Source of the DNA: Hyphomonadaceae bacterium
GTDB lineage: Bacteria; Pseudomonadota; Alphaproteobacteria; Caulobacterales; Hyphomonadaceae
Direction of reading: 5' to 3'
Assembly: GCA_024743315.1 (NCBI GenBank)
Contig: JANSWU010000001.1
Span: 496,001-560,000, forward strand
Length of the DNA: 64,000 nt
Made by a program: the position numbers and the translations under genes. The notes under the pieces were generated by a model that saw only the letters and a program-made list of their open reading frames with translations, was not told the DNA's origin and did no database searches. This document shows positions 26,490-28,241 of this stretch, piece by piece. Each line of letters opens with the position of its first letter. Position 1 is the first letter of the stretch.

Positions 26490-28241
26490 ATGGCATTCTG
26501 GATCTACGAGAATTTCGGCAACAAGCGCGCCCGGCTGCACACGGCCAGCTGCCGCTATTGCAATGACGGTCAAGGCGTTGGCGGCGACCAGACCAATGAT
26601 GATGATAAATGGCATGGGCCGTTCGCGACCTTTGCTGAAGCCGATGCCGCGATGACCGCGCTCGGTCAAAAAGACGCGCGTCCTTGTGGCGTCTGCAAAC
26701 CCGCAACCGCGGACGCCAAAACTGCTGCAGCGCCCGCTGCCGCTACCCCCAAAACCACGGCCGCCCCAAAAAAGGCTGCCCCGAAACCTAAACCCGCTCC
26801 TAAGGAGACGCCTCGCATGGACCTTTCAAAAGCGACTGGCCGCGTTAGCCAGGTAATCGGCGCTGTTGTCGACGTTGAGTTCGATGGCGCCCTTCCGGAC
26901 ATTCTCAACGCCCTGGAATGTGACAATAATGGCAACCGCCTCGTGCTCGAGGTTGCCCAGCACCTCGGGGAAAACGCGGTGCGGACCATCGCCATGGACT
27001 CTACAGAGGGTCTTGTGCGCGGCCAGCCTGTTGCAGACACAGGCGGTCCGATCCAGGTTCCTGTTGGACCCGGCACGCTTGGCCGGATCATGAACGTTGT
27101 CGGTGAGCCGATTGACGAGCGCGGCCCTGTCGCCTCGGACATTATGGCGCCGATCCACGCGCCAGCGCCTGACTTTGTCGACCAGTCAACCGAAGCCGAA
27201 GTTCTGGTCACCGGGATCAAGGTGATCGACCTGCTCTGCCCCTATACTAAAGGTGGTAAGATCGGCCTGTTCGGCGGCGCCGGGGTTGGCAAGACAGTTC
27301 TGATTCAGGAACTGATCAACAATATCGCGAAACTGTTCGGTGGATATTCAGTGTTTGCCGGCGTTGGTGAGCGGACCCGTGAAGGCAACGATCTCTATTA
27401 CGAGATGCAGGACGCCAACGTGATCGATCTTGATGGCGAAAGCCGCGCAACGCTCGTCTATGGCCAGATGAACGAGCCTCCTGGCGCGCGTGCGCGTGTG
27501 GCTCTGACCGGACTTGCTCAGGCTGAGTATTTCCGCGACCAAGAAGGTAAGGACGTTCTGTTCTTCGTCGACAATATCTTCCGATTCACCCAGGCCGGTT
27601 CTGAGGTGTCAGCGCTGCTTGGCCGGATTCCATCGGCGGTGGGCTATCAGCCAACGCTGGCGACCGATATGGGCGCTCTGCAAGAGCGGATCACGACGAC
27701 AACCAAAGGCTCGATTACCTCTGTGCAAGCGGTTTACGTGCCTGCGGACGACTTGACCGACCCAGCGCCAGCGACCTCGTTCGCCCACTTGGACGCGACC
27801 ACGGTTCTCAACCGCTCGATCGCTGAAAAAGGCATCTATCCGGCGGTGGACCCACTCGATTCTACCTCGCGTATTCTGGACCCACTGATCATTGGTCAGG
27901 ACCATTATGAAGTCGCGCGCGGCGTTCAGGAAATTCTGCAGCGCTATAAGGAACTGCAAGACATTATCGCGATCCTCGGCATGGACGAACTGTCTGAAGA
28001 AGACAAACTCGTCGTCGCCCGGGCCCGTAAGGTTGAGCGCTTCCTGTCGCAGCCATTTGACGTGGCTGAAGTCTTCACCGGTTCGCCTGGCGTTCAGGTG
28101 AAGCTCGAAGACACCGTGGCCGGCTTTAAAGGCCTCATCGAAGGCGAATATGACCACTTGCCAGAGCAGGCGTTCTACATGGTCGGCTCGATCGACGAAG
28201 CGAAAGCCAAAGCCGAGAAAATGCTCGCTGACGCGGCCTAA
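26490..28241 (+). CDS. atpD: F1 ATP synthase beta subunit with N-terminal Cys4 domain fusion (long form)
   Basis: This frame encodes 583 residues. Residues 1-71 form a compact domain with H17, C21, C24, W41, C66 and C69 ([21 protein letters not shown]), suggesting a zinc-ribbon-like site. Residues 72-109 are an Ala/Pro/Lys-rich linker. From residue 110 ([20 protein letters not shown]) the protein is a normal beta subunit with Walker [15 protein letters not shown], the ATP-synthase signature [11 protein letters not shown] and catalytic-site [18 protein letters not shown] lies nine bases before ATG 26490. AAGGAG lies nine bases before the internal ATG 26817, so a 474-residue canonical form can also be made. 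Beta performs ATP synthesis in the F1 head. Which form enters F1 is unknown. Confidence 0.85.
26817..28241 (+). CDS. atpD: F1 ATP synthase subunit beta (canonical short form, internal start)
   Basis: Starting at ATG 26817 gives a 474-residue beta subunit of ordinary length, beginning [26 protein letters not shown] nine bases upstream is as good a ribosome binding site as that of the outer start at 26490. I list it separately because the catalytic beta subunit may be made mainly from here, with the upstream Cys4 domain present only on a fraction of subunits or not on the assembled enzyme. Sequence alone does not decide between the two. Confidence 0.7.

Follow-up and report, generated by a model that had tools for sequence, protein, structure and literature searches.

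A His/Cys domain fused in frame to the ATP synthase beta subunit and a retained second start predict two beta proteoforms in Hyphomonadaceae

Few known proteins are as highly conserved as the beta subunit of ATP synthase, and F1 is regarded as an invariable complex whose catalytic subunits are all alike. What, then, is to be made of an atpD gene that opens with an additional domain and keeps what looks like its former start codon inside the frame? The gene lies in a stretch of 64,000 nucleotides from a Hyphomonadaceae bacterium (GCA_024743315.1, contig JANSWU010000001.1, positions 496,001 to 560,000), which is referred to as the window and to which all coordinates without a locus name apply. 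The gamma subunit gene atpG (25607..26488, plus strand) ends with the stop codon TAG at 26486-26488. After a single base, the ATG at 26490 opens a frame on the same strand that is stop-free to 28241 and encodes 583 amino acids. A sequence-only reading had described this frame as a cysteine-bearing domain and a linker continuous with beta, with ribosome-binding-like sites at two starts, and all of these elements were borne out. Residues 1-71 (26490..26702) hold H17, C21, C24, C66, C69 and a WxGPF block (W41-H-G-P-F45). Residues 72-109 (26703..26816) form an A/P/K/T-rich linker, the end of which is the translated former atpD leader. The remaining 474 residues (26817..28241), beginning with Met 110 of the long form, are canonical F1 beta: residues 116-578 matched positions 2-462 of the 462 in the curated atpD profile TIGR01039 with 829 bits, exceeding the cut-off of 462.85. 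Thus, residues 110-583 are an ordinary beta subunit, to which the window protein adds a His/Cys-bearing N-terminal extension of 109 residues. A Shine-Dalgarno-like GGAGG (26476..26480, plus strand) precedes start 1 within the last atpG codons, and an internal AAGGAG (26802..26807, plus strand) is placed 9 bases 5' of start 2, the ATG at 26817. In our view, the locus is likely to be one gene for two beta proteoforms, the long one of which would bring the domain into some F1 heads.

The fusion is not peculiar to the window. A profile search found the domain in 40 of the 105 genomes of the family, which is more than chance; 39 of the matches lie in open frames of 580-684 amino acids and the fortieth (G062) is placed at a contig end. 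Fusion genomes fall in five of the ten genera of the family, including 25 of the 29 genomes of the window's genus. They are mostly marine bacteria, and the named records comprise Henriciella, Ponticaulis, Hyphomonas johnsonii, Hyphomonas sp. BRH_c22 and several MAGs, with only some members of Hyphomonas carrying the fusion. When the domain itself served as the query, 28 of 61 relatives matched, own genome included, 27 in frames of 580-684 amino acids and one (G037) in a transposase. In samples of 385 genomes of the class and 398 of the phylum, to which a few family members belong, no AtpD fusion turned up outside the family. The earlier suggestion to look for residues 1-71 elsewhere was rewarded on both counts, with other AtpD fusions in the family and with stand-alone homologues.

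To ask how the extension evolves, we kept 38 distinct fusion genes from 70 loci; L070, in which the contig ended before any beta motif, was dropped. The beta of another locus (L076) contains a 75-residue insert that is a run of unknown letters. The linker, counted from the last Cys to the internal Met, takes 17 different lengths between 34 and 74 residues, all of them in frame (n = 38). Stop codons occur within it in none of the 38 genes in the beta frame, as compared with 10 and 32 genes in the other two frames. Median pairwise dN/dS amounted to 0.17 in the domain and 0.44 in the linker, and two parts of beta gave 0.11 and 0.06; these values were calculated from pairs with dS of 0.1-1.5 only (313 of 703 pairs for the domain) at silent sites that are near saturation (median pS of 0.66 in the domain). 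H17, C21, C24, C66 and C69 were invariant in 31 of 31 sequences. From the dN/dS, the in-frame linkers and the invariant His/Cys residues, it follows that the domain behaves as a translated protein and as part of beta. At the level of sequence comparison, this demonstrates purifying selection on both the domain and the frame.

Predicted alone, the domain adopts a beta-beta-beta-alpha-beta fold with a mean pLDDT of 85. A full-length AlphaFold model built on a shallow alignment reproduced this secondary structure but failed for beta (mean pLDDT of 39.7), so that it is uninformative on the linker. The window's copy of the domain passed no Pfam or NCBIfam cut-off, a sequence search of the PDB yielded nothing usable for it, and a single PHROGs match (E of 0.094) was set aside. 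Foldseek gave nine matches, none of them significant, with the N-terminal Ada structures 1u8b and 1zgw on ranks 1 and 4 (E of 2.8 and 5.6). An hhalign comparison with Ada reached a score of 19.3, where 200 column shuffles gave at most 19.1, for a match that spans only 12 columns; two other alignments gave 14.4 and 15.8. The Ada family (PF02805) was not among the families found at E up to 1 with the extension and 17 members of the domain family, nor did it have a place in the own genome at E of 1e-8. Kinship with Ada is thus not established. What the two share is a similar spacing of possible ligands. The zinc ligands of Ada are arranged as C-x3-C and C-x2-C, a pattern that we assume would map onto H17, C21, C66 and C69, leaving C24 free. 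In place of a significant fold match, the residue pattern suggests that the domain binds zinc, probably via these four residues with C24 as an extra. The C-terminal half of the domain resembles DUF6233 (PF19746) with 24.3 bits, which is below the curated gathering score of 27.6, and DUF6233 was found at E up to 1 for 12 of the 17 family members. A search for DUF6233 in 40 genomes of the phylum returned no matches; the controls gave none either, which renders it uninformative.

Outside AtpD, the domain occurs in stand-alone proteins of about 70-85 amino acids that are scattered over the Alphaproteobacteria. The distant alphaproteobacterial genus g300 matched in 8 of 30 genomes, and seven of the eight matches are located behind the Fo genes for c, b' and b. 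Six are intact genes of 71 amino acids that begin 89-112 nt after the b stop codon, with a median dN/dS of 0.19 (15 pairs): L140:5718-5933 (G584), L160, L163, L164, L165 and L166. In G584, the next gene encodes a carbonic anhydrase and lies on the opposite strand. The seventh copy is broken by two stop codons, and the eighth match is fragmentary, the 13 kb around it having yielded no ATP synthase gene. These placements provide a suggestive second link of the domain to ATP synthase, and it is possible that the g300 protein is an unrecognised ATP synthase accessory protein; as a guess, one such placement among about 20 lineages would have a chance of a few percent. Most stand-alone copies are not close to ATP synthase genes. 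None of the 11 other places from the order search had such a gene within 1.5 kb. ATP synthase genes were likewise absent from the 7-13 kb around the places in G1103, G881, G990, G1027 and G1113, from the short contig of G1079, and from the 5-13 kb around those in G170, G253, G135, G779 and G480, while the surroundings in G865 were covered with Fo queries and over 1.5 kb only. The domain also forms the start of longer proteins (L161:5819-6526, minus strand, and L173), in which about 160 further residues follow, and the end of another (L154). One stretch within the 160 residues looks like a GIY-YIG motif; L161 gave no Pfam match at E of 0.01.

Some of these relatives bear on the main rival to an action on F1, namely that the domain is a nucleic-acid-binding module by which long beta attaches to the mRNA or DNA that encodes it, for autoregulation or tethering. 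Two IS1-like transposases end in the domain (L040:1465-2694 and L109:1468-2652, both on the minus strand), of which L040 passes the Pfam cut-off and L109 falls under it, and the first Foldseek rank, although not significant, belongs to the DNA-binding N-Ada. The Ada profile match, however, has a probability of 12% over its 12 columns, or 3% with a wider alignment. Furthermore, the region 22000-30000, which includes the junction, matched no known RNA family (Rfam, gathering scores), and the two repeated contexts with a known partner are the beta fusion and the neighbourhood of Fo b. We therefore regard a pure nucleic-acid role as unlikely.

For both starts, we calculated the pairing energy of the 20 bases upstream of the ATG with the anti-Shine-Dalgarno sequence. 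Start 1 lies 0-23 nt behind the atpG stop codon in 38 of 38 genes and shows energies of -4.0 to -12.1 (-9.5 for the GGAGG of the window gene), the weak end of -4.0 to -5.1 being formed by L064, L066 and L055. As the GGAGG is situated within atpG codons, its conservation tells little. At start 2, Met 110 is present in all 38 genes, the energies range from -7.3 to -11.4, and in every gene the site beats all of the 11-20 other ATGs, in any frame, further down beta. Thus, a second in-frame start with a ribosome binding site of its own, as expected of N-terminal proteoform pairs, is conserved throughout. Accessibility at start 2 was mildly above background (median of 0.50 versus 0.39), with 19% of background positions equally open.

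The codons of the leader were tabulated for 30 genes with the residues APKE, picked on protein letters, leaving out the 8 of 38 without APKE. Thr107 is ACG in all 28 genes that have Thr, a uniformity equalled by 3 of 148 fourfold beta columns, and Ala103 is GCT in 29 of 30, equalled by 5 of 148. K105 (AAG) and E106 (GAG) are invariant in 30 of 30, but 14 of 119 twofold beta columns equal both, and the codon for Pro104 is ordinary, with no special conservation. These data have to be weighed against the view that only long beta is made, every beta carrying the domain, and that the internal Shine-Dalgarno sequence and ATG are merely left over from the time when the gene began there. Such a view accommodates the frame, which is unbroken in 38 of 38 genes, and shared ancestry alone accounts for part of the likeness between this leader and that of domain-less relatives. 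It does not sit well with a leader that is kept while the linker preceding it varies freely in residues and length. Nor does it explain seven Ponticaulis-type genes, in which the leader reads KKGS or similar, and thus differs in protein, yet still spells AAGGGG at the proper distance. Start 2 is, moreover, ready for use wherever the domain is absent. Exclusive synthesis of the long form consequently appears improbable to us. As far as gene comparison goes, the evidence says that the retained second start, Shine-Dalgarno sequence and ATG together, is under selection.

The domain-less relatives were examined with beta as the query in 29 genomes, 26 of which yielded atpD (G010, G014 and G062 gave none). 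None of the 26 has the domain 5' of beta. Relatives with the two parts split by stop codons, which the sequence-only reading had named as evidence against a fusion, were not among them; the domain is simply missing. In the 16 genomes that group with the fusions, the beta start corresponds to ATG 26817 and has energies of -8.5 to -9.1, so that start 2 is present in all 54 rows of the comparison (38 fusions and 16 nearest domain-less genomes). The remaining ten have weaker sites (-3.2 to -6.6). The leader CGCTCC-N-AAGGAGACG is common to 12 of the 16 nearest domain-less genomes and the fusion genomes, where it is translated as APKET. That only short beta matters, the upstream frame serving as a spacer whose translation links atpD to atpG while long beta is degraded or negligible, is very improbable. 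Domain-less genomes do have a gap of 30-183 nt behind atpG, and the 16 nearest all manage on start 2 alone; a coupling frame, however, need not hold five His/Cys residues invariant, show a dN/dS as low as that of the domain, or preserve the beta frame across linkers of 17 lengths.

In a quickly built beta and gamma tree of 64 rows, 17 of which lacked gamma, the fusion and short states change at least 8 times, or 5 times when only strongly supported branches are counted, compared with 20.4 changes for shuffled labels; because the root was not inferred, the count cannot separate gains from losses. Where short genomes are nested within groups of fusion genomes, the pattern resembles loss. One near relative is G007 (L077), the beta of which is 99% identical to that of the window. 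It is missing the domain and most of the linker (window 26489-26816), whereas the last 26 bases of its leader match the window except for one base missing before the ATG. G007 looks like a natural deletion in which the leader was kept. The domain is dispensable in several lineages. Within the window's genus, the domain-less L078 (G006) has 183 nt between the atpG stop codon and beta, as compared with 30-119 nt in other near relatives, perhaps a decayed remnant.

Taken together, the fusion is real and conserved, and the locus is probably dual-product. The sequence-only reading had posed metal- or redox-sensing domains on F1 and two products as alternatives. It is partly supported: with both starts under selection, synthesis of both products is likelier than either alternative alone. 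We propose that a small His/Cys-domain gene came to sit behind atpG and ahead of atpD and was joined to the reading frame of beta via the A/P/K linker, without removal of atpD's own leader. As start 1 follows so closely on atpG, it is usable by ribosomes finishing that gene; these would begin at ATG 26490 and make long beta of 583 amino acids. Others would load independently on the retained AAGGAG of the old leader and begin at ATG 26817, giving ordinary beta of 474 amino acids. We infer that both products accumulate and co-assemble. If both can enter the alpha3-beta3 ring, an F1 head would carry zero to three tethered domains, depending on start choice. F1 requires alpha and beta in equal numbers; the rates of the two starts would therefore have to sum to the beta requirement, and their ratio would set the number of domains on the average F1.

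In F1, the N-termini of beta belong to the crown, on the side away from the membrane. Tethered by 34-74 linker residues, the domain could extend to delta, b, alpha or an outside partner. Presumably, it is located at the top of F1, far from the membrane and close to delta and the peripheral stalk, where it would influence stalk contact, assembly or a partner; the stand-alone g300 gene beside b points in the same direction. A more far-reaching version, a mixed-subunit ATP synthase in which start choice sets how many of the three betas bear a tethered zinc or thiol domain and in which the same domain is an unrecognised accessory module, used in trans by another alphaproteobacterial genus as a small protein encoded behind the peripheral-stalk b gene, is put forward as a tentative and rather doubtful proposal.

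Dual starts as such are a known device. N-terminal proteoform pairs that arise by internal in-frame initiation, such as long and short ClpB, have been described and are said to be enriched among oligomer-forming proteins (PMC11005335). Like those pairs, atpD would have one gene, two in-frame starts and a short product without the N-terminal domain. It differs in that the catalytic subunit of ATP synthase is concerned, for which two products are predicted here from sequence, and in that the start of the short form is where the ancestral gene began, the upstream domain having been added or removed several times. Extensions of AtpD rich in A/P/K occur in the same order (L093 and L101); they share the linker-like A/K/P/T composition before beta but have no His/Cys domain and only one Met ahead of the beta core. 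Other N-terminal extensions of ATP synthase subunits have been listed (PMC4154653), and 75 alternative start codons were reported for Caulobacter crescentus in a study whose main text does not contain the terms atpD and ATP synthase (PMC4117421). Searches of the open-licence PMC literature for AtpD N-terminal extensions, an internal atpD start or Henriciella ATP synthase returned no report of such a fusion. Within the literature searched, it is new to find this device applied to the catalytic subunit of ATP synthase and combined with a mobile His/Cys domain.

If the proposal is true, two starts kept over many species would turn F1 into a graded mixture, with total beta being what both starts yield together and the proportion of long beta decided at the level of translation. 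Keeping the old start would be a low-risk way of fusing a domain to an essential gene. The window genome and G007 form a natural pair with and without the domain, in which the effect of the addition on a rotary motor could be followed.

Several other candidates were considered and rejected. The domain does not replace the zeta inhibitor, as PF07345 is found in 101 of the 105 family genomes, with and without the fusion. A second, weaker zeta-like match near the first was seen in G030, G107-G110 and G112 (genus g3) and in G033, G063 and G064 (genus g6), in some of these genomes below the family cut-off. An origin from phages or plasmids was dismissed on finding no phage record, two plasmid records with weak matches and no confirmed relative in viral contigs, and a known defence module on finding no PADLOC match for the five proteins submitted. 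Downstream of the fusion, between atpD and atpC, the window contains an inverted pair of repeat-like sequence of the TTCGACTTCGCTCAGG type (28262-28335), with two matches in the window versus 0.04 expected.
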